Source: Bacteroidia bacterium
GTDB lineage: Bacteria > Bacteroidota > Bacteroidia > NS11-12g > UBA9320
Reading direction: 5' to 3'
NCBI GenBank assembly: GCA_018402155.1
Contig: JAGYJG010000001.1
Coordinates: 570,198 to 634,197 of the forward strand
DNA length: 64,000 bases
This document shows, in pieces, positions 40,271 to 50,279 of this stretch (within the stretch, counting starts at the first letter, position 1; every line of letters begins with the position of its first letter). Made by a program: the position numbers and the translations under genes. The notes under the pieces were generated by a model. It was not told where the DNA came from. It saw only the letters and a program-made list of their open reading frames with translations, and did no database searches.

Positions 40271-40831
40271 CTATTGAATTACTAAAGTAAAATCTACTTC
40301 TACATCTGTTTCTCCGACATCACAGCTGCCATTTTTAACACCAGGTTGGTGTTTTAAACGTATCATAAAGTTGGTTTGTTGGGTTGCTTGTGTTGCCACA
40401 GTAGCACGTAGCCCAAGTGCCTGATTATTGCCGTCTTGGTCTGTAATAGTGGTTGTAATGTTTCCTGCAGAGGTGTAGCACACAAGGTGTTCGTCTGCCT
40501 CTTCGCGCACTTCTTCTGTAATGTCCTCTACTGGCGACTTACTTTCGTCCAAAAATCGTATACCTAAGTTGTAGGTGCTATTGGCTTCCAGTTTAATGGT
40601 GTCAAATTGGGTTGGTGCATTACCGCCGTCACCGTCAGGATCTGCAAATTTGAAAATTCGTACATCATTAGAATTACTACTGTTTTCAAAAGTGAGCTCT
40701 ACAGTAGTTATAAGTTCCTCTTCGTTTTCGTTTGGTGGTGCAATTACCTCATCGTCTTTGCAGCCAGTAAAGGTGATAGTAAAGCTGGCTACTGTAGCTA
40801 GCATTAGTGGTTTTAAAAATCTGTTGTTCAT
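40271..40831 (-). CDS. Lipoprotein partner of the TonB receptor, unknown function
   Basis: A 186-residue lipoprotein: the signal ends FTGC with Cys24, then the acidic segment KDDEVIAPPNENEEE. The mature part is a predicted beta-sandwich with two Cys (VCYTSAG and GSCDVGE) that could form a disulfide. I do not recognise a named domain. It follows the TonB receptor by 34 bases and ends in a terminator, so it is the last gene of that unit. Such small lipoproteins often help a receptor capture its ligand at the surface, which is inference here. Confidence 0.75.
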   Translation of the reverse strand: MNNRFLKPLMLATVASFTITFTGCKDDEVIAPPNENEEELITTVELTFENSSNSNDVRIFKFADPDGDGGNAPTQFDTIKLEANSTYNLGIRFLDESKSPVEDITEEVREEADEHLVCYTSAGNITTTITDQDGNNQALGLRATVATQATQQTNFMIRLKHQPGVKNGSCDVGETDVEVDFTLVIQ

Positions 40832-40865
40832 ACTGTTAAATTGTTAAAATTGTTAAAATGTTAAA
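40832..40865 (-). repeat. Four GTTAAA repeats filling the receptor-lipoprotein gap
   Basis: GTTAAA occurs at 40835, 40843, 40852 and 40860 (spacings 8, 9 and 8). On the transcribed strand this is a repeated TTTAACA leader just before the lipoprotein ATG. It may be an AU-rich translation enhancer or a slipped tandem repeat. Confidence 0.6.
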
Positions 40866-43124
40866 TTAAAAAGTGTAATTAAGTGTTAAATAAAAATTTA
40901 TGCCCAAATCGTCGGCATAGTATCGATAGCGGTTCATATAGTCTCTATATGCCGTATTAAGTAGATTTTGCACACCAAAATTAAAATACAAAGGAGTGTT
41001 TTTGTACTGTCCGCCTAGCTCTGTGTTTATTAGAAGGTAGCCTGACGGTGAGTCGGAAAAATCTTCATTGAGTTCTATTCTATTTTGCTTTGCGGTATAT
41101 TCTGTGCCAATTTTCCAGTTGCCATTTTGCACACCGAGTAGCTCGGCAAAGGTGTATCGTACCATAGCGGTAGCTTGCTGTGCTGGTATACCAAAAATAT
41201 GTGTATCGTTGGTTATGTCCCTCACGTAGACCAAAGCTGCGGTTAGTTCTGCTGTCCACTGGGAAGCTATTCTATACTGCATGCCTAAGTCAGATCCTAC
41301 ATAAGTGGCATCTGTTTGCACATAGTTAAATACTGGGAATGCCCCTCTTATAGTCAGTTGTTTTTGTCCGCTGGGTTTCAAATAAATGTAGTTCTCAAAG
41401 TAGTGAAAATAGGGTTCTACCTGAAATCTCAGTCGGTTGTGGTTATAATTTAATGCGGAATTGACGGAAAATGATCGTTCTTGGGTGAGTGTTAAATCAC
41501 CAAATTCTAATGCAGCAGACCCGTGGTGTAGCCCATTGCTAAACAGCTCGTTAATGTCTGGGCTTCGAAAACGGGTAGCCGCTGAAAGGTGTAACTGTAG
41601 GTCTTGATTTAGTCTTTTCCATCCACTAATGTTTGCAGAAAATCCGTCAAAATCAAATTGTTCTTCAAGGAGTATATCTTTATTGTACCTGTACGTGGTG
41701 GTTTTTTGTAGGTCGTATCGCAATCCTGCCTCTATTAGGTAGTCCTCCTTTTCTACCGTTGCTATAGCAAAAATACCGGTTTTGTATCGCTGGTAGTTGG
41801 GTATAAAATAGCGACCCTTAAAAATATTTTGTTGAGATTCACCTGAAAGACCATACTGCCACCTGTACTGCTGCATATGCTTGTCTATAAATACATTTAT
41901 TTGTTGTGTTACTAGATTCAGATCTAGCGCAGCGGCGTTTTTTCCTGTATGGTTATCAAACTCTTGGCGGTGATTATTTTGCAAGGTGTAGCTACCATTT
42001 ATAGCACCCAATGGTTCACTTTCATAGTTCCATTTTATTTTGGTGGCGTAGTGCTGTATGCGCTGAGATGGTGCCTGTATTTCATATGAAAATGGTTTTA
42101 GAATAAGTGGTGTATCACTCGCAAGCGCTCTATTCAAATCTGTTAGATTTCCTATATGAGCTGCAGAAAGTATACCGAGCTGTTGTACAAAAGCAGATGC
42201 CGTAGCCGAGAACATATGCCTGCCAGTTTCTAACTGTGCATAGTATGCTCCACTCAGCTGTCCAAATGCAGTGTTGCTCAGGTTATAATTGGCAGCTTGG
42301 GCATCTCCGTTGCGTTTCATGTTTACTATAAAACGTTGTCCAAGGGATAACTCTTTTGCATATCTTTCTAGTTTTAGACCAAAGTGACCGCCATTTGGGT
42401 TTGTTTCTCCTTTAGCTATTAGAGATAGCCGAGTGTAGGTAGAGTCAGAAAATGTGGCTGGGAGCACTCGTATCACCCCGCCCATAGCATCGCCGCCATA
42501 TCGCAAGGTAGATGCTCCCTTTATTAGTTCAATACTTCCTGCACTTAGTGGGTCTATCTCTGGTGCGTGCTCGCTTCCCCACTGTTGACCTTCTTGTTTG
42601 CTGTCATCATTTATGACCGATATTCGGTTACTATGCATACCGTTTATGATGGGCTTGGCTATTGTATTTCCGGTTCTTAAAAAACGCACTCCGTTTGAGT
42701 TTTTCAGAGCTTCACTCAAGTTTGTGGCTGCTAGGTGCTCTAGTTTTTTAGCACTCACAGTGTGTATAAATCGAGCGTCTGGCTCTTGGTTGTGCTCATG
42801 TCCATAGGCTACAACTTCCTGAAAACTGTGCAAATGATGAGGTAAATAAACGTTAATAAACGTATCTCCGGCTATAGTTATTTGCCAAAATTTTGTGGTG
42901 CAACCTACGTGGCTCACGCTTACAGTATGCTTGCCTAAGGGCAGAGGAGGAGATATAAATTTCCCCTGCCTGTTGGTCACCAAACTATGATTGTCAATAA
43001 CCACTATAGCCTGAGCCATTGGTTCGTTTGTGACACTGTCTAGCACCGCTCCAGATAGAGTAACTTGTCCAAATACTAGTGGGCCAAAACCTAGCAGCAT
43101 ATAAAAGGCGAAAATTTTTCGCAT
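40866..43124 (-). CDS. TonB-dependent outer-membrane receptor, ZnuD-like
   Basis: A 752-residue outer-membrane transporter. It has a signal peptide ending VFGQ, a carboxypeptidase-like beta domain (about 22-95), a plug domain with INGMHSNRISVINDD and the motif KQEGQQWGSEHAPEID (176-191), then a 22-strand type beta-barrel ending in YLTLNYTF with the terminal Phe. The QQWGxEHAPEID motif and the His-rich segments HHLH (96-99) and GHEH (108-111) are typical of receptors for zinc or related metals. Neighbours are a His-rich secreted peptide and a lipoprotein. The metal is inferred. Confidence 0.88.
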   Translation of the reverse strand: MRKIFAFYMLLGFGPLVFGQVTLSGAVLDSVTNEPMAQAIVVIDNHSLVTNRQGKFISPPLPLGKHTVSVSHVGCTTKFWQITIAGDTFINVYLPHHLHSFQEVVAYGHEHNQEPDARFIHTVSAKKLEHLAATNLSEALKNSNGVRFLRTGNTIAKPIINGMHSNRISVINDDSKQEGQQWGSEHAPEIDPLSAGSIELIKGASTLRYGGDAMGGVIRVLPATFSDSTYTRLSLIAKGETNPNGGHFGLKLERYAKELSLGQRFIVNMKRNGDAQAANYNLSNTAFGQLSGAYYAQLETGRHMFSATASAFVQQLGILSAAHIGNLTDLNRALASDTPLILKPFSYEIQAPSQRIQHYATKIKWNYESEPLGAINGSYTLQNNHRQEFDNHTGKNAAALDLNLVTQQINVFIDKHMQQYRWQYGLSGESQQNIFKGRYFIPNYQRYKTGIFAIATVEKEDYLIEAGLRYDLQKTTTYRYNKDILLEEQFDFDGFSANISGWKRLNQDLQLHLSAATRFRSPDINELFSNGLHHGSAALEFGDLTLTQERSFSVNSALNYNHNRLRFQVEPYFHYFENYIYLKPSGQKQLTIRGAFPVFNYVQTDATYVGSDLGMQYRIASQWTAELTAALVYVRDITNDTHIFGIPAQQATAMVRYTFAELLGVQNGNWKIGTEYTAKQNRIELNEDFSDSPSGYLLINTELGGQYKNTPLYFNFGVQNLLNTAYRDYMNRYRYYADDLGINFYLTLNYTF

Positions 43125-43486
43125 ACTATTTTATTTTTATCTTTTTTAAAAGCTCTTGAAATGATTGAATATAATGGAAACTAAGGTATACGTCTAGCCA
43201 TTGTATAGATCTAGTAGATAGTACTCCTGAGAGTTTTTTATGAAATACATTAGAGCTTATCTTTTTGATTGTGAATCAAAGGGATATTTATGCATTCCGA
43301 GAAAAAAACTAGAAACCTATACTAAACAATTCAGCGTTACTGACAGCTAAAGTAATTCCGATTGCACTTTCAAGGTAGTTTGAAACACATCTTTAAAAAC
43401 TAAATCGACGTTATCCTAGAAGATCTTTAAAAGAGGTGCGCTTGCTTTACGGAAACCGTACGTCAGAAACCAAATTATTTTGTAAA
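43125..43486. other. Gene-free region upstream of the TonB receptor
   Basis: About 360 bases. It contains an inverted repeat at 43261-43283 (CTTTTTGATT, GTG, AATCAAAGGG, with seven perfect inner pairs) that could be an operator. No gene or clear promoter box was found. Confidence 0.4.
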
Positions 43487-43795
43487 TCAGGCTTTTGGGG
43501 CAGGTGGAGCTCTACCTTTTGCCGGTTGAGATAAGCAAGAAAAAATAGGGTGAAGAGTTTCTGAGGAGAATGTTTTGTACCAAACTTGGTTTGAGTCCTC
43601 TGAAAGTGAGGAGGGGATATCACCAAACTGCAAAACCACATCGCATAACGAGCAGTGGTGATGGTGGTCCGGTTCACATAGGTGAGTCCCTTCTTTGTGG
43701 TTATGATTTTCAGATTGCTCTAGCTGATGCACAATGCTGCTAGCCCCAACAAGGACGAGTTGCATAATGAGCAGTATTGAAACCAATCTTTTCAT
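43487..43795 (-). CDS. Small His/Cys-rich secreted protein, DUF2946-like
   Basis: A 102-residue protein with a hydrophobic signal (1-20), then a metal-ligand-rich core: His31, His33, His38, Cys40, His44-47, Cys48 and Cys51 (PDHHHHCSLCD). The C-terminus GRAPPAPKA resembles the RxPP end of DUF2946 proteins found beside metal transport genes. It lies upstream of, and in the same direction as, the ZnuD-like receptor. A role as a periplasmic zinc or copper binder is likely but unproven. I start at ATG 43795, the signal-peptide Met, not eight residues earlier. Confidence 0.75.
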   Translation of the reverse strand: MKRLVSILLIMQLVLVGASSIVHQLEQSENHNHKEGTHLCEPDHHHHCSLCDVVLQFGDIPSSLSEDSNQVWYKTFSSETLHPIFSCLSQPAKGRAPPAPKA

Positions 43796-43883
43796 GGGTA
43801 CAAAACTAGGTAATTTCATTTATTAAAGACGAATGGATTAATAAATACTATTCAGTTAACAGAGATTAGATGATTATTTAGGG

Positions 43884-45365
43884 TTAGTTTTTGTTTATTG
43901 GATAGATTTTTGAAAATGCCCAACCGCAGCATAAAGCTATGGCAAAGGAAGGAGCGAGCACGTCTAATCTCTCAATATAAACGCCGATTCCATCCATGGG
44001 TTGCAGGACAAATTTAAAAAAACTAACACTAAAAAAGCCACTAATAATACTAGCAATAGCTCCAGCTTCAGAGTAATTTTTCCAAAAAAGAGAAAGAATA
44101 ATTACAGGACAAAAGCAAGCGGCAATTCCACTCCAGCCAAATATCATTACCCAAAAAACTTGTCTATCTGGACTGAAATAGGCCATTGAAAAAGCAAGAA
44201 AAAGGGAAATAATGGCCATAGAAAGTGTTACATACCGAGATATTTTAGTGAGTTTATCATCAGATAGGGTAGGGTTAAAAATTTTTTGATAAAAATCTCG
44301 AGTAACGGCACTTGAAGCCATTACGAGTAAAGAGTCAATAGTAGACATTATCGCTGAAAGCACAATAGCTACGTATATGGCAGCAATGCTAAGTGGCAAA
44401 AACTCGGTTGTTACAAGATGAAGTACATCGGTAGCACCGGTTCCGAAAATGACTTCCGGGTCTTGACCTGTTTTGGTAAAAACCACGCGAGCTAATAGTC
44501 CAATTGTAACTGCAGCTGCATCTGTAAATAAGGTATAAAAAATAGCTACCCATTTTCCTTTCACAATTTCCTGTTCATTTTTTATAGACATAAATCGAAC
44601 ATAGACTTGAGGAGAGCCTAAAAAGCCAAGACCTATCATTGAAAACCCTAAAATAGTCGCTAAATTGAGCCAAAAACCTTCACCACCCCATACATTGGTT
44701 AACCTAGGGTCTATGGCGTGCAATGTGTTGATGATATCTAAGTTATCATCTAAATTATAATAAACCACAATAGGCAATAGTACAAGACCTAAAAACATCA
44801 AAAAGCCTTGAAATAAGTCAGACCACACTACGGCAACAAATCCACCAATAAATATATAAGCTAGTACTATAAAGAAGCCCAATAATGCGCCACTGTAGTA
44901 GTTCATTCCCATCATAGACTCAAAAGCTATTCCCGTGGCATCTATTTGGGTACTGACGTAGATTACCACAAATACCGATAATATAGATGCAGCAAGTCCT
45001 CTCAAAAATCTGGTATTTGTTTTAAAATGGGATTCTAAATAATCGGGTATTGTTAGCGATTTATATTGGTCAGACTGGCGTTTGAAACGTTTTGCCATAT
45101 AAATCCATGATACAGCCACTCCAAAAACTTCTCCAAGAACCACCCAATATGCAGAGACGCCAGCTAAAGCGCCCATACCGGTGAGACCAATGAGTAGCCA
45201 ACCTGATTCACCTGTTGCACGCGCCGAAAAAGCAACAGCCCAATATCCTATTTTTTTACCTCCAACATAATAGTCGCTGATATTTTTTACACGTTTGGAG
45301 GCTACTATTCCTATTAGAAATAGAACAAAAACATATACTGCTAGTGCTATAATTTTTGCTAGCAT
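43884..45365 (-). CDS. Sodium:solute symporter (SSF/PutP family)
   Basis: A 493-residue inner-membrane transporter with about 13 hydrophobic segments. SSF features are the N-terminal SDYYVGGKKIGYWAVAFSARATGESGWLL (near 31-60), the GWSGIAACFCPVIILSLFW region and many unpaired Gly in helices. It imports a small solute with Na+. PutP-like members carry proline, but the substrate cannot be read from sequence. It follows the decarboxylase by nine bases, so the pair is co-transcribed. With cysteine dioxygenase divergent next door, transport of taurine, hypotaurine or another osmolyte is a plausible role. Confidence 0.88.
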   Translation of the reverse strand: MLAKIIALAVYVFVLFLIGIVASKRVKNISDYYVGGKKIGYWAVAFSARATGESGWLLIGLTGMGALAGVSAYWVVLGEVFGVAVSWIYMAKRFKRQSDQYKSLTIPDYLESHFKTNTRFLRGLAASILSVFVVIYVSTQIDATGIAFESMMGMNYYSGALLGFFIVLAYIFIGGFVAVVWSDLFQGFLMFLGLVLLPIVVYYNLDDNLDIINTLHAIDPRLTNVWGGEGFWLNLATILGFSMIGLGFLGSPQVYVRFMSIKNEQEIVKGKWVAIFYTLFTDAAAVTIGLLARVVFTKTGQDPEVIFGTGATDVLHLVTTEFLPLSIAAIYVAIVLSAIMSTIDSLLVMASSAVTRDFYQKIFNPTLSDDKLTKISRYVTLSMAIISLFLAFSMAYFSPDRQVFWVMIFGWSGIAACFCPVIILSLFWKNYSEAGAIASIISGFFSVSFFKFVLQPMDGIGVYIERLDVLAPSFAIALCCGWAFSKIYPINKN

Positions 45366-45374
45366 AATTGATGA

Positions 45375-46736
45375 TTAAGTGTTAGAAACCGTGACAGCTC
45401 CAAGCTCCAAAACGGCAAAAAATCGCAAAATATCTTCCTTCGTATTGGTTGCATTAATGGTGACTAGCCTTACGAACTCTCGGCCAGCAAATTCACCATA
45501 GCCAACCATGAGATTACCCTTTTCGTAAAGCGAAGTGCACAGGTCTTTTGGATTTACGCTGTGGTAGTTGAAACATACAGAAATAGAATCAGAAAAACTG
45601 TAAAGCGTGTATTTAGGGTTTGATTTACAATATTCTCTAGCTATATCCGCCAAGTAAAATTGATGGTCTATAATTTTTTCTAAACCCTTGTTGCCTTTAG
45701 ATTTCCAAAGGGTCCAAAGTTTTAATGCGTCGTTTCTTCGGCCGCACTGTATACTGGTACGTCCCAAGTCAAAGTCTTCGTCTCCAGTTTGGTATAGGTA
45801 GTCTGCCTCATTCGAAAATGAGTTTGCCAACTGCTCCTTGTGTTTGGTCACTACTACAGAGCTGCTCAGTGGCGTACCTAGCATTTTGTGAGCATTGAAA
45901 CTGAAACTATCGCTGCGATGTAATCCGGCTACAAGGTGCTTATATTTTTGGCTAAAAATAACAGCACCGCAATATGCTCCGTCTACGTGCAGCCAAAGAT
46001 TGAAATTTTGAGCTACGTCTGCTAAGGCATTTATGTCATCAAAAGCACCCAATACCGTTGTGCCTGCTGTAGCATTTATCAAAAATGGTGTGTATCCTGC
46101 AGCGGTATCTTCTTCTATGCATTGTTGCAAGTGCTTAGCATCCATTTTCCCATGTTCATCGTTGAGTATGTAGCGTATATTGTTTCTCCCTATACCTGCA
46201 AAAGCTGCATTTTTAGGAATAGAATAGTGCGAAGTTTCTGAGGTGTAAAGGGTCATTTGTTTAGTCATACCTATACGCTTTGCTGCGTGGTCTTTAGCAT
46301 CTCTAGCCATTACTAGCCCCATATAGTTGCTCATAGATCCTCCAGGAGGCATAGTGCCATCGCCATTGGTGTAGCCTGCAAGCTTACACACTTCTTTTAT
46401 TATGGTTTTTTCTATGCCTGCTTGCGGTCCTGCTACTTTGTAAGTATACATACTATTGTTGAGCATCACTGCCAGAAGATCGCCTACTATAGCCTTGGGC
46501 TGTCTACCCCCAAAAAGTTGATTAAAAAAAAGTTTAGAGGCTGTGCGTGGTGTTTTCATTACTACATTTTCTACAGCTTTTTGCCAATCTTCTTCGCTCA
46601 TAGGATTATCTCTAAAACGTAAGTCTAAATCTGAAGTTATTGATGCCGCAGGAAGGTGTTCCACAACGGGTTCAGTTTTCTCTTTTTGGAGTAATTTTTC
46701 TACTAATTTTTGAAAGAATTTCAATTCATTTTGCAT
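45375..46736 (-). CDS. Group II pyridoxal-phosphate decarboxylase, candidate cysteine sulfinate decarboxylase
   Basis: A 453-residue PLP enzyme of the glutamate/cysteine-sulfinate/aspartate decarboxylase group. His170 (SETSHYS) stacks on the cofactor, Asp252 (HVDGAY) binds the pyridine nitrogen and Lys284 (NAHKMLG) forms the Schiff base. The family includes glutamate, aspartate and cysteine-sulfinate enzymes, which are hard to separate by eye. The divergent gene 128 bases away is cysteine dioxygenase, which makes cysteine sulfinate, so that substrate is favoured (giving hypotaurine). It is co-transcribed with a sodium symporter. Confidence 0.85.
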   Translation of the reverse strand: MQNELKFFQKLVEKLLQKEKTEPVVEHLPAASITSDLDLRFRDNPMSEEDWQKAVENVVMKTPRTASKLFFNQLFGGRQPKAIVGDLLAVMLNNSMYTYKVAGPQAGIEKTIIKEVCKLAGYTNGDGTMPPGGSMSNYMGLVMARDAKDHAAKRIGMTKQMTLYTSETSHYSIPKNAAFAGIGRNNIRYILNDEHGKMDAKHLQQCIEEDTAAGYTPFLINATAGTTVLGAFDDINALADVAQNFNLWLHVDGAYCGAVIFSQKYKHLVAGLHRSDSFSFNAHKMLGTPLSSSVVVTKHKEQLANSFSNEADYLYQTGDEDFDLGRTSIQCGRRNDALKLWTLWKSKGNKGLEKIIDHQFYLADIAREYCKSNPKYTLYSFSDSISVCFNYHSVNPKDLCTSLYEKGNLMVGYGEFAGREFVRLVTINATNTKEDILRFFAVLELGAVTVSNT

Positions 46737-46846
46737 AAATAATTTTCAAGTCTCAGGCTATTTTTTGGATAATGCAAGGTTTTATTGATTTAATTAAAAA
46801 ATACAGTAAAAATGTCGTTTTTTATCCATTTTCTAAAGAAAATACG

Positions 46847-46854
46847 TATTTTTG
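46847..46854 (+). promoter_or_regulatory. Cysteine dioxygenase -7 promoter box TATTTTTG
   Basis: Exact TAnnTTTG match ending ten bases before the ATG, in a 128-base divergent region shared with the decarboxylase gene. Confidence 0.5.
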
Positions 46855-46864
46855 ACTCAAATTT

Positions 46865-47413
46865 ATGGTTTTTTCTAAAAAAAGTAATTTGAAAATTACC
46901 GACTTAAATCAGCTTGTAAACGCACTTCTTAACCAAGAGTATGACCTTGCCATAAATGAAGCAGCTTATTGTCATTTTGCACCAGAAGATTTTGTCCCTT
47001 ATATGCACTGGAATGCAAATCATTATACCCGAAATTGCATTGCTCGAAACAAGGATTTTGAGCTAATTTTACTCTGTTGGGAGCCAGGTCAAAAAACCGC
47101 GATCCATTGCCACAATGAGCAGGAGTGCTGGGTGAAGGTGATAGCTGGTCAGTTTGAAGAAGAAGTATATACGTACAATCAAGCTTCTGGAGAGCTAAAG
47201 GTTAAAGATATAAGTATGCTGGGCAAACACGAAGTAACATCTATTAAAGACGCCTCCATCTTTCATACTTTAAAAAATACGCACACCGGCAGATCTATGA
47301 GTTTACATTTATATATGAACCCGATTACACAATGCCGGTATTATAGTACACAAGATAAATGCCTGCAAACAGTTTCGCTAAGTTATCACTCGTTTCGTGG
47401 GGAGCTTGTTTGA
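46865..47413 (+). CDS. cdo: Cysteine dioxygenase type I (cupin)
   Basis: A non-heme iron enzyme of 182 residues that oxidises cysteine to cysteine sulfinate. The iron ligands are His81, His83 (AIHCHNE) and His134 (SIFHTL). Arg56 (HYTRN) binds the substrate carboxylate. Cys88 and Tyr150 (SLHLY) line up with the Cys93-Tyr157 pair that forms the thioether cofactor in mammalian enzymes, and Ser146-x-His148 matches the supporting Ser153/His155. Many characterised bacterial enzymes have Gly at the Cys position. It is divergent from a likely cysteine-sulfinate decarboxylase. The call is firm on motifs. Confidence 0.92.
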   Translation: MVFSKKSNLKITDLNQLVNALLNQEYDLAINEAAYCHFAPEDFVPYMHWNANHYTRNCIARNKDFELILLCWEPGQKTAIHCHNEQECWVKVIAGQFEEEVYTYNQASGELKVKDISMLGKHEVTSIKDASIFHTLKNTHTGRSMSLHLYMNPITQCRYYSTQDKCLQTVSLSYHSFRGELV

Positions 47414-47468: not shown

Positions 47469-50279
47469 ATGATTAGAAATACAATTCTACTATTTACCAC
47501 TGTTTTGAGCTTCAGTGCCGTATTTGCACAAACTTTTCCGATAGGTGGAAAACTCAAAAATGCTGAAACTAAAGAAAGTATTGCCGGTGCTACCATATTT
47601 GTGCTAACGCTAGATAGTAATATTGCCGCAGGTGCAGTATCTGATGATAACGGTGCTTTTACTGTAGATCTCAAAAGAGGTGAGTATACCCTAAAAATAA
47701 GCTACCTTGGCTTGCAGCCCTATAGTGAGCCCCTGCGAGTGTGGCGAGATGACTACTTGGGTACTATTTTTTTGAGTGAAAAAGCAACAGAATTAAAAGC
47801 AGTAAGCATAAAAGAGCAAACTTTGCAAGCTACTACACAAGGAGACACAACCTCATTTAACGCTAAAGCATACAAAACCAACCAAAATGCAAGTGCAAAA
47901 GATTTACTCGAAAAAATGCCAGGTGTACAAAATGACAATGGAGAAATAAAAGCACAAGGAGAAAGAGTGCAACAAGTACTGGTAGACGGCAAACAGTTTT
48001 TTGGTCAAGATCCCAAAACTGCGCTCACTACATTGCCTGCTGAGGTAGTAGATAAAATTCAGATTTTTGACGATAAAAGTGAACAAAGCAAGGCCAGCGG
48101 CATAGACGATGGAACGCGTGTGAAAACCATCAATATAGTGACCAAGATAAATATGAGAAACGGAGAGTTTGGTAAATTGTATGGCGGAGCAGGTACAGAC
48201 AATCGCTACAGTGCAGGGGGAAGTCTCAATATGTTTAGAGGAGAAAGAAGGCTCTCTGTTTTGGGTCAGGTAAATAATATAAACCAACAGAATTTCAGTG
48301 CAGAAGATCTGCTTGGCGTAGTAGGTGACAATAGCGGGGGAGGTGGAAATAGAGGTGGCAGAGGACCTAGTGGTGGAGGTAGACCCTCATTTCTTAGTGG
48401 TTTTAGTGCAGGAGGTAGTGCATCAGATTTTCAGGTGAGTAGCGCCGGCGGTATTACCGAAACCATGGCAGGTGGGCTAAATTATCAAGACCAATGGGGT
48501 AAAAAAATAGAAGTTAGTAGTAGTTATTTTTATAATCAAGGTGAAAATATTGCTATAAATGAAACCTATCAATCGTACTATTTAGAGAATGCAAACGGAC
48601 AGCAATATATGGAAACAGATTCGAGCAGTAGTGTCAATACCAATCATAAGCTCAATGCTAAGTTAGTGTATAAAGTGAATCCCAAGATGTCGTTTTTTTA
48701 TATTCCTAGTGTTATTGTGCAGCAAAACCATGGAGCGAGTGCAATACTTGGTAAAACCAGCCGAGAAACTAACCCTATAAATGAACTTCGTCAAACCTTT
48801 AGTAGTGACTTGTTTGCCTTAAAAATGAGCAATGATTTGATGTTTAGGTACAACGGAGAAAAACGAGGTAGAAGCCTGTTTGTACAAGTGAAAAGTGATG
48901 TAGACCGGACCAACGGAGATAATCAGCTAAACTCTGAAAACAAGACGAATGACGTGATTAACAACATAGACCAACTTGGAAATTTGGATGAAAATACTGA
49001 TGGAATAACTACCAGCGTGATGTACAGTGAGCCAATAGGAGATAAGGGGCTTGGGTCTTTTATGAGTTACGATTTTAGCAACAGTATAAATATAAATAAC
49101 CAGCAGATACTTAGTGGTGTTATTTCTCCAGGTTCAGGCACCATAGACTCTTCGCTTTCGTCCCGTTTTAATAACGATTGGAACACCCACCAAGCCGGAA
49201 TTGGATTTAGAAAATTTAATAGAAAAGGCGGGTTTGTTGTACGATTGAAGTATGAAATAGCAACTCTAGAAAATGCACAATCGATACCCTCCCGTGAAAA
49301 TGTAAATCAAACATTCGGAAACATACTGCCCTTTGCCATCTACCGCGCCAAACTTAAAAATGAGGCGTCTTGGTTTAGTATGTATAGAACCTACACCACC
49401 AAACCACAAGCAAGTCAGCTTACTACTACTGTTAATAATACAAATACACTGCAATTGTCTACTGGTAATCCTGCCTTAAATCAGACTTATGGCCATTGGT
49501 TTATGAGTAAATACAATGTTACTAATGTGAAAAAAAACAGTGTTTTTTATGCGATGATAAATGGGGGTTTTGCCAAAAATTTTATAGGTCAAAGCACATT
49601 TACAGCGCTGCAAGATACGATGTACAACGGTGTTAGTATACCGCGAGGTGGACAACTGAGCAACCCAACTAATTTAAATGGGCAGTACACAGCAAACGCA
49701 TTTATAACCTATGGTTTTCCATTAGCTAAACTGAAAAGTAACCTCAATATTAATTTGAATACAGGAGTTACCAATATTCCGTCGCTGATTAATGACCAAA
49801 TAGCCAATACTTTTAACCAAAACTATGGATTAGGTATGGTGCTTAGTAGCAACATTAGCGAGAATATAGATTTTACAATTTCTACAGAAAGTAGCTACGT
49901 TTTGAGCGATAACTCACTAAACATCGGATTGAGCAATAGCTACTTGGTGCAAACAAGTAAAATAAAGTATGATTGGGTAATGCCACTCGGATTTACTTTT
50001 CGTACCCAGTTGCAGCATCAAGAGTTTTTTGGTCTAAATGCGTCATTGACAAACAGAGTACTTCTTTGGACTACAGGAGTAGGTAAACAGGTTTTTAAAA
50101 ATAAGCGTGGAGAAATACAGCTATCGATGTACGATATTTTAGGGCAAAACAACAATGTTGCTCAAAATTTTTATGACAGTTATTATGAAGAGACTAACAG
50201 CAACGTGCTTACTCGCTATGTTATGTTTTCGTTTTCGTACAATATTAGAAAATTTAGAGATAGTGAGGTGCAGGAATAA
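47469..50279 (+). CDS. Outer-membrane beta-barrel receptor-like protein with carboxypeptidase-like N-terminus
   Basis: A 936-residue protein with a signal peptide ending VFAQ, a CarboxypepD_reg-like beta-sandwich (22-105), a plug-like domain (about 110-235; LLEKMPGVQ, VLVDGKQFFGQDP, VDKIQIFDD) and a long beta-barrel of the outer-membrane beta-barrel family. An unusual Gly/Arg-rich loop, GGGGNRGGRGPSGGGR (290-305), falls early in the barrel, probably outside the cell. No SusD-like partner follows, so it is not a standard glycan-uptake pair. The substrate is unknown. Confidence 0.85.
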   Translation: MIRNTILLFTTVLSFSAVFAQTFPIGGKLKNAETKESIAGATIFVLTLDSNIAAGAVSDDNGAFTVDLKRGEYTLKISYLGLQPYSEPLRVWRDDYLGTIFLSEKATELKAVSIKEQTLQATTQGDTTSFNAKAYKTNQNASAKDLLEKMPGVQNDNGEIKAQGERVQQVLVDGKQFFGQDPKTALTTLPAEVVDKIQIFDDKSEQSKASGIDDGTRVKTINIVTKINMRNGEFGKLYGGAGTDNRYSAGGSLNMFRGERRLSVLGQVNNINQQNFSAEDLLGVVGDNSGGGGNRGGRGPSGGGRPSFLSGFSAGGSASDFQVSSAGGITETMAGGLNYQDQWGKKIEVSSSYFYNQGENIAINETYQSYYLENANGQQYMETDSSSSVNTNHKLNAKLVYKVNPKMSFFYIPSVIVQQNHGASAILGKTSRETNPINELRQTFSSDLFALKMSNDLMFRYNGEKRGRSLFVQVKSDVDRTNGDNQLNSENKTNDVINNIDQLGNLDENTDGITTSVMYSEPIGDKGLGSFMSYDFSNSININNQQILSGVISPGSGTIDSSLSSRFNNDWNTHQAGIGFRKFNRKGGFVVRLKYEIATLENAQSIPSRENVNQTFGNILPFAIYRAKLKNEASWFSMYRTYTTKPQASQLTTTVNNTNTLQLSTGNPALNQTYGHWFMSKYNVTNVKKNSVFYAMINGGFAKNFIGQSTFTALQDTMYNGVSIPRGGQLSNPTNLNGQYTANAFITYGFPLAKLKSNLNINLNTGVTNIPSLINDQIANTFNQNYGLGMVLSSNISENIDFTISTESSYVLSDNSLNIGLSNSYLVQTSKIKYDWVMPLGFTFRTQLQHQEFFGLNASLTNRVLLWTTGVGKQVFKNKRGEIQLSMYDILGQNNNVAQNFYDSYYEETNSNVLTRYVMFSFSYNIRKFRDSEVQE

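Follow-up and report, generated by a model that had tools for sequence, protein, structure and literature searches.

The 64,000-nt stretch of Bacteroidia bacterium DNA analyzed here (assembly GCA_018402155.1, contig JAGYJG010000001.1, positions 570,198 to 634,197 of the forward strand; hereafter, the window) carries a three-gene locus that very likely serves to make hypotaurine, with a cysteine dioxygenase (CDO), a decarboxylase of the cysteine sulfinate decarboxylase (CSAD) type and a sodium symporter, the last most likely for uptake of a small beta-amino acid. The dioxygenase would oxidize cysteine to cysteine sulfinate, as judged from its active-site residues and the family to which it belongs. 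The decarboxylase next to it would then remove the carboxylate to give hypotaurine, as its CSAD motif and closest relatives suggest. By the company that it keeps in different genomes, the symporter may drive sodium-dependent import of hypotaurine, taurine or beta-alanine, and the organism would both make and scavenge the solute. The features of the locus, in window coordinates, are as follows:

43884-45365, minus strand: sodium:solute symporter, PutP-like but not PutP (Pfam SSF, 239.8 bits)
45375-46736, minus strand: group II pyridoxal phosphate (PLP) decarboxylase, predicted CSAD (Pfam Pyridoxal_deC, 246.5 bits)
46737-46864: divergent intergenic region of 128 bases between the decarboxylase and dioxygenase genes
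46865-47413, plus strand: cysteine dioxygenase, Arg-type (Pfam CDO_I, 79.5 bits)

All three Pfam scores exceed the respective gathering score. A preliminary description of the window, made from the sequence, had already noted the three genes, and we confirmed the open reading frames as well as the gaps of 9 bases (45366-45374) and 128 bases between them. Because only 9 bases separate the symporter and decarboxylase genes, the two probably form one transcription unit.

Among solved proteins in the PDB, those closest to the decarboxylase were human and mouse CSAD (273 and 268 bits), followed by GADL1 (253 bits) and GAD1 (231 bits). Residues F75, S95 and Y97 form the pattern F-x19-S-x-Y with the spacing of 19, reportedly described by Agnello et al. 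in 2013 as the substrate-selectivity motif of CSAD, and the PLP lysine is K284, within NAHKML. We aligned 81 decarboxylases, namely the window's own and those of 80 fetched loci (the best 80 of 407 encoding a relative of the decarboxylase, with many loci being contig ends). The three motif positions read FSY in 79 sequences and YSY, the form present in GADL1 according to an alignment with solved proteins, in the remaining two; the PLP lysine was kept in all 81. According to excerpts of PMC8153620, three positions decide between CSAD and glutamate decarboxylase (GAD).

The motif alignment took best matches only, and 177 of 395 genomes sampled from the phylum match the decarboxylase in all when weaker matches are included. 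As a control we used 31 further loci, comprising 29 new best matches from the 395-genome search together with loci L132 and L144. All six control loci at 58-61% identity had FSY and the one at 54% (L092, genome G225) had YSY, while 21 of the 23 at 27-35% identity carried other residues at the three positions. The motif was unreadable in L132 (G040), where the decarboxylase is in pieces, and only S and Y were visible in L144 (G012), one of the 23, which is cut at a contig end. No NCBIfam equivalog cut-off was reached by the window protein. On its residues and relatives, we predict the decarboxylase to be a CSAD.

For the dioxygenase, the best PDB matches were mammalian CDO1 proteins at about 70 bits, with entry 3eqe, a 'putative cystein dioxygenase', at 37.7 bits; no NCBIfam match was obtained at E 0.001. 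Equivalents of the mammalian residues R60, H86, H88, C93, H140, S153, H155 and Y157 are all present. In an alignment of 54 CDOs, including that of the window, seven of these (R60, H86, H88, C93, H140, H155 and Y157) were identical throughout, and position 153 was occupied by S in 37 sequences and by T in 17. The protein has the three-His iron site and, at position 60, the arginine of the Arg type; in Gln-type thiol dioxygenases a Gln stands there, as it does in two Streptomycetaceae homologs. As read from the sequences, both cross-link residues, Cys93 and Tyr157, occur in all 54 CDOs. Bacterial CDOs use an unmodified tyrosine according to excerpts of PMC8050391. The idea that Cys93 is peculiar to this group of CDOs was dropped: a Vibrio homolog has Cys93 and with it both cross-link residues, and the two Streptomycetaceae homologs align Cys at the same place. 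One CDO-like match, in genome G037 (locus L145, 3758-5131), is a 457-aa protein with Gly at position 93 that also matches a UbiE-type methyltransferase model; in the counts below this fused protein was kept as dioxygenase-only.

Results of the neighbourhood comparison showed a CDO at most 1.5 kb from the decarboxylase in 54 of the 80 loci; the two genes diverge in 34 of these and run in the same direction in the other 20. A symporter 59-87% identical to that of the window was present in 30 loci in one of two layouts, either downstream of the decarboxylase and on its strand (15/80) or divergent upstream (15/80), and one further locus had another arrangement. Cultured relatives in which the three genes adjoin one another include Polaribacter glomeratus (L075) and P. 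filamentus (L057). The preliminary description had made its reading depend on conservation of this neighbourhood, and conservation was found. In a tree of the 81 decarboxylases the CDO layouts were clustered, and the layout with the symporter downstream appeared in two separated parts; that association was therefore gained more than once or rearranged.

Co-occurrence was assessed in 108 genomes of the order, where the decarboxylase was counted at 54% identity at least and a symporter ortholog at E 1e-80 or better. Decarboxylase and dioxygenase were found together in 21 genomes, the decarboxylase alone in none, the dioxygenase alone in two and neither in 85 (Fisher p ~2e-20, a value that kinship among the genomes makes optimistic). 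The association between the two enzymes exceeds chance. The two dioxygenase-only genomes are G037, with its methyltransferase-domain fusion, and G040, in which a fragmented decarboxylase lies beside the dioxygenase; a decarboxylase match in G012 (E 1e-60, 36%), a genome with no dioxygenase match, was not counted as of the same kind. The symporter ortholog occurred in 15 of the 108 genomes, all of them with the dioxygenase (Fisher p ~6e-13, likewise optimistic for related genomes), i.e., in 14 of the 21 with both enzymes and in G040. In three genomes (G031, G033 and G035) it adjoins the CDO and the decarboxylase is about 70 kb away. Across the 395 genomes of the phylum sample (symporter threshold E 1e-100, CDO E 1e-6), the decarboxylase at 54% identity or more was present in eight, six of these with the dioxygenase, and the dioxygenase alone in none; the symporter was found in 12, including five with both enzymes, and G160 had both enzymes and no symporter at this threshold. 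Taken together, the CSAD motif, the CDO residues, the conserved neighbourhood and the co-occurrence support well the route from cysteine through cysteine sulfinate to hypotaurine that was first proposed for the locus, as far as sequence comparison can indicate it.

The symporter likewise reached no NCBIfam equivalog cut-off. It belongs to the sodium:solute symporter (SSS) family and resembles PutP in its best model (TIGR02121) and in keeping A53, A337, S340 and T341, but it scores under the equivalog cut-off (322.7 vs. 515.5 bits) and has the replacements D55 to G, M56 to E, W244 to I and Y248 to F. We aligned 49 orthologs, 35 of them encoded beside the enzyme pair or the CDO and 14 elsewhere, and found G, E, I and F at these four positions in every ortholog covering the site; for the W244 and Y248 replacements this means 46 of 46, with three of the 49 gapped there. 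These two we take to be residues of transmembrane segment 6 with a role in PutP. Identity with the PutP proline symporter was ruled out on the score under the cut-off and the replacement of W244 and Y248. Because the same four residues recur in all covering orthologs, these proteins likely share one substrate class, other than proline.

A candidate for that class came from another family, that of genome G463, in which five of 27 genomes carry a symporter ortholog of 52-56% identity. In three of the five (G463, G510 and G513; loci L121, L140 and L142, 53-56% identical to the window's symporter) it has a carbon-nitrogen hydrolase and a nucleobase permease in its vicinity, together with a class III aminotransferase, whole or in part. 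In G510 and G513 these neighbours were recognized by being 76-83% identical to their G463 counterparts, and only part of the aminotransferase was recognized. Only in G463 did the fetched stretch reach further, and there the next genes encode a dihydropyrimidinase, a malonate/methylmalonate-semialdehyde dehydrogenase and PreA, each over cut-off; the stretches from G510 and G513 end before this point. Unlike the window, these clusters have no close symporter-linked CDO or CSAD in the fetched stretches. In the other two genomes, G290 and G509, the symporter lies beside a fatty-acid-desaturase-like gene instead. We infer that the hydrolase is a beta-ureidopropionase and the aminotransferase a beta-alanine aminotransferase, and the G463 cluster is a probable reductive pyrimidine catabolic route, which passes through beta-alanine. 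Hypotaurine is beta-alanine with a sulfinate replacing the carboxylate, and therefore one carrier would suit both neighbourhoods, hinting at a beta-amino acid as the substrate. Apart from the G463 cluster, no repeated neighbour theme appeared among 20 proteins scanned around symporters away from the CDO and decarboxylase. In the same family, G290 and G463 gave no PanD match. That the symporter is an SSS-family sodium-coupled carrier of hypotaurine, taurine or beta-alanine, within a Bacteroidota module to make or scavenge the solute that ends at hypotaurine and not at taurine, we put forward tentatively, as possible rather than likely.

The preliminary description had left the product as hypotaurine or taurine. 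Hypotaurine is the part that our results support; enzymatic formation of taurine is weakly disfavoured, as no match to the flavin-monooxygenase (FMO) family PF00743 was detected at E 0.001 in the window's genome (G000). This family scored over cut-off in one of 22 order genomes examined. Xsc was over cut-off in none of 36 genomes, that of the window included, and taurine dissimilation via Xsc was rejected on this count. Weaker Xsc matches in 31 of the 36 genomes presumably represent other thiamine enzymes; all 14 control genomes also match. Since the window's genome has no PF00743 match and no Xsc over cut-off, the results point to hypotaurine being formed and retained, neither converted by an FMO1-like enzyme nor degraded via sulfoacetaldehyde, and it is probably the enzymatic end product in this organism. 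If taurine is formed at all, its source would be non-enzymatic oxidation or an enzyme that our searches do not recognize, and some such oxidase may convert hypotaurine. Physiologically, the pathway could provide a compatible solute or an antioxidant, or dispose of excess cysteine.

Several observations weigh against this interpretation. The best NCBIfam model for the decarboxylase is that of 2,4-diaminobutyrate decarboxylase (165.3 bits vs. a cut-off of 900), and FSY also occurs at control locus L093 (G216), at 33% identity and without a detected CDO. Human CSAD is itself weakly active on aspartate and glutamate, according to excerpts of PMC8153620. In 26 of the 80 loci the 1.5 kb around the decarboxylase hold no CDO; 21 of these loci extend 1.5 kb or more upstream and five stop short of that; in two of the eight decarboxylase-bearing phylum genomes (G225 and G333) neither a CDO (E 1e-6) nor a close symporter (E 1e-100) was found anywhere in the genome. 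Seven of the 21 order genomes that encode both enzymes lack the symporter ortholog, which stands beside the decarboxylase or CDO in 10 of the 15 order genomes that bear it and adjoins the enzymes in three of the five phylum genomes with all three genes (G000, G195 and G419), and a further seven phylum genomes have it without either enzyme. In the G463-type clusters, the best model for the hydrolase is N-carbamoylputrescine amidase (241.3 bits vs. a cut-off of 410.25), the 25 models shown include no aminotransferase model over its cut-off, and a 624-aa gene (G510) or a 1006-aa gene on the opposite strand (G513) separates symporter and hydrolase. The earlier suggestion that the symporter serves as a recovery system is plausible in view of the neighbourhood in the other family, and is weakened by the missing orthologs.

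An alternative role in cysteine detoxification or sulfur disposal, with the symporter importing cysteine or a thiol precursor and hypotaurine being waste or exported, seems to us unlikely, though it fares best among the alternatives. The step catalysed by CDO commits cysteine to this catabolic route, and in G031, G033 and G035 the symporter adjoins the CDO without the decarboxylase. However, disposal does not require a dedicated CSAD, relatives of the symporter are found close to a probable beta-alanine route, and among the identified symporter neighbours (20 proteins scanned) we noted no cysteine gene.

Less probable still is that the decarboxylase is an aspartate 1-decarboxylase supplying beta-alanine for pantothenate, its closeness to the CDO being incidental. 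Such a role would fit the slow use of aspartate by human CSAD (excerpts of PMC8153620), the decarboxylases kept without a CDO in G225 and G333, and again the location of the symporter's relatives close to a probable beta-alanine route. PanD, however, is present in 32 of the 36 genomes (a match that is partial in G024), among them the window's genome and 27 of 29 with the decarboxylase, G225 and G333 included and G040, with its decarboxylase in pieces, counted. With PanD present the decarboxylase is unnecessary for pantothenate, and beta-alanine supply through it is disfavoured; in addition, the CDO linkage is conserved and the motif is of the CSAD type. The PLP-dependent aspartate 1-decarboxylase PanP was also rejected as an identity (TIGR03799, 130.4 bits vs. 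a cut-off of 606.1; PanD is also present in the genome). A GAD system for gamma-aminobutyrate with a glutamate or proline symporter, to which the shared Pfam family and the PutP-like symporter might point, can practically be dismissed and GAD identity was rejected on motif residues and scores: F/S/Y occupies the positions where GAD, following Agnello et al. in 2013, reportedly has S/N/F, CSAD outranks GAD among the PDB matches, the gene is linked to a CDO, and W244 and Y248 of PutP are not kept.

With hypotaurine synthesis as the preferred function, the decarboxylases that stand without a dioxygenase call for another explanation of their substrate. Many Winogradskyella and Ulvibacter relatives keep the decarboxylase with no dioxygenase beside it. 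Since relatives with the same neighbouring genes (L024, L060 and L071) do have one, the dioxygenase was probably lost in this lineage. At the CDO-less loci (L015, L018, L022, L023, L027, L037 and others) and in G225 and G333 the CSAD motif is kept, as YSY in G225, and the gene occupies one conserved site, which by eye adjoins genes resembling Nqr subunits. The decarboxylase neighbourhoods of G225 and G333 are alike in gene size and order, a likeness that does not refer to sequence. These genomes and loci indicate that the decarboxylase can persist without a CDO; there it would need another source of substrate, e.g., cysteate or imported cysteine sulfinate, or a different substrate.

The source genome (2.49 Mb, 10 contigs, 99.63% complete) contains a single decarboxylase match at E 0.001 and a single close symporter, the next-best symporter matches being 26-29% identical. 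The nearest decarboxylase homologs come from uncultured Bacteroidota/Bacteroidia genomes (78% to 72% identity). A search of plasmids returned 101 records for the decarboxylase, all below 60% (the 30 listed all below 33%), nine for the dioxygenase, at most 31.5%, and 14 for the symporter, at most 33.6%, where the three with an annotated gene were putP. Within the intergenic region, TATTTTTG at 46847 on the plus strand, 18 bases ahead of the dioxygenase ATG, fits TAnnTTTG, which we take to be the Bacteroidota -7 promoter consensus; no match to it was found on the minus strand of 46737-46864.

Adjoining the symporter, positions 40271-43819 encode a TonB-dependent receptor (752 aa), a His/Cys-rich 110-aa protein with no Pfam match and a 186-aa lipoprotein-like protein. 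They are perhaps a metal-uptake group and are outside the hypotaurine locus. A 100-135-aa gene and a TonB-dependent receptor also come after the symporter in L002-L005. In the close relative L006, the decarboxylase is immediately followed by the small gene that elsewhere comes after the symporter, and the symporter therefore seems to be missing from that site. On the other side, 55 bases past the dioxygenase, 47469-50279 encodes a 936-aa outer-membrane beta-barrel protein, whose gene is adjacent in L002 and L003 too.

Prokaryotic taurine biosynthesis via CDO and CSAD was reportedly described by Agnello et al. in 2013 in Synechococcus sp. PCC 7335. The bacterial CDO-CSAD pathway is thus already published. 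With it the present locus shares the side-by-side arrangement of a CDO and a group II decarboxylase with the F-x19-S-x-Y motif; it differs in its occurrence in Bacteroidota, in the frequent third gene for a sodium symporter, in having divergent as well as co-directional orders, and in that the window's genome has no FMO-family match. The animal route (CDO1 and CSAD or GADL1) has the same two predicted reactions, supplies the closest solved structures and shares Cys93 and Tyr157, whereas its FMO-type last step was not found in the genome and the similarity of the dioxygenase is modest (about 70 bits). The label 'animal taurine route' in the preliminary description missed that the route had already been reported in bacteria. 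Excerpts of PMC8153620 and PMC10356861 cite the prokaryotic CDO-CSAD work (Agnello et al. 2013), and those of PMC10356861 describe taurine-type synthesis as typically metazoan and sporadic in bacteria. Our literature search, whose coverage left out most subscription papers, returned nothing specific on the pathway in Bacteroidota, on bacterial CDO or on PutP/taurine symporters.

What is added here is the spread of the pathway in Bacteroidota with its layouts, a symporter that often accompanies it and for which a candidate substrate class can be named, and a lineage without the dioxygenase; the partnership with the symporter is the less expected part of the locus. Among organic sulfur compounds, taurine and related molecules are important. 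A pathway present across many Bacteroidota, cultured genera included, would add a bacterial source of taurine-type compounds. The lineage without CDO raises the question of where its decarboxylase obtains substrate, and for bacterial uptake of hypotaurine or taurine the symporter provides a testable candidate.

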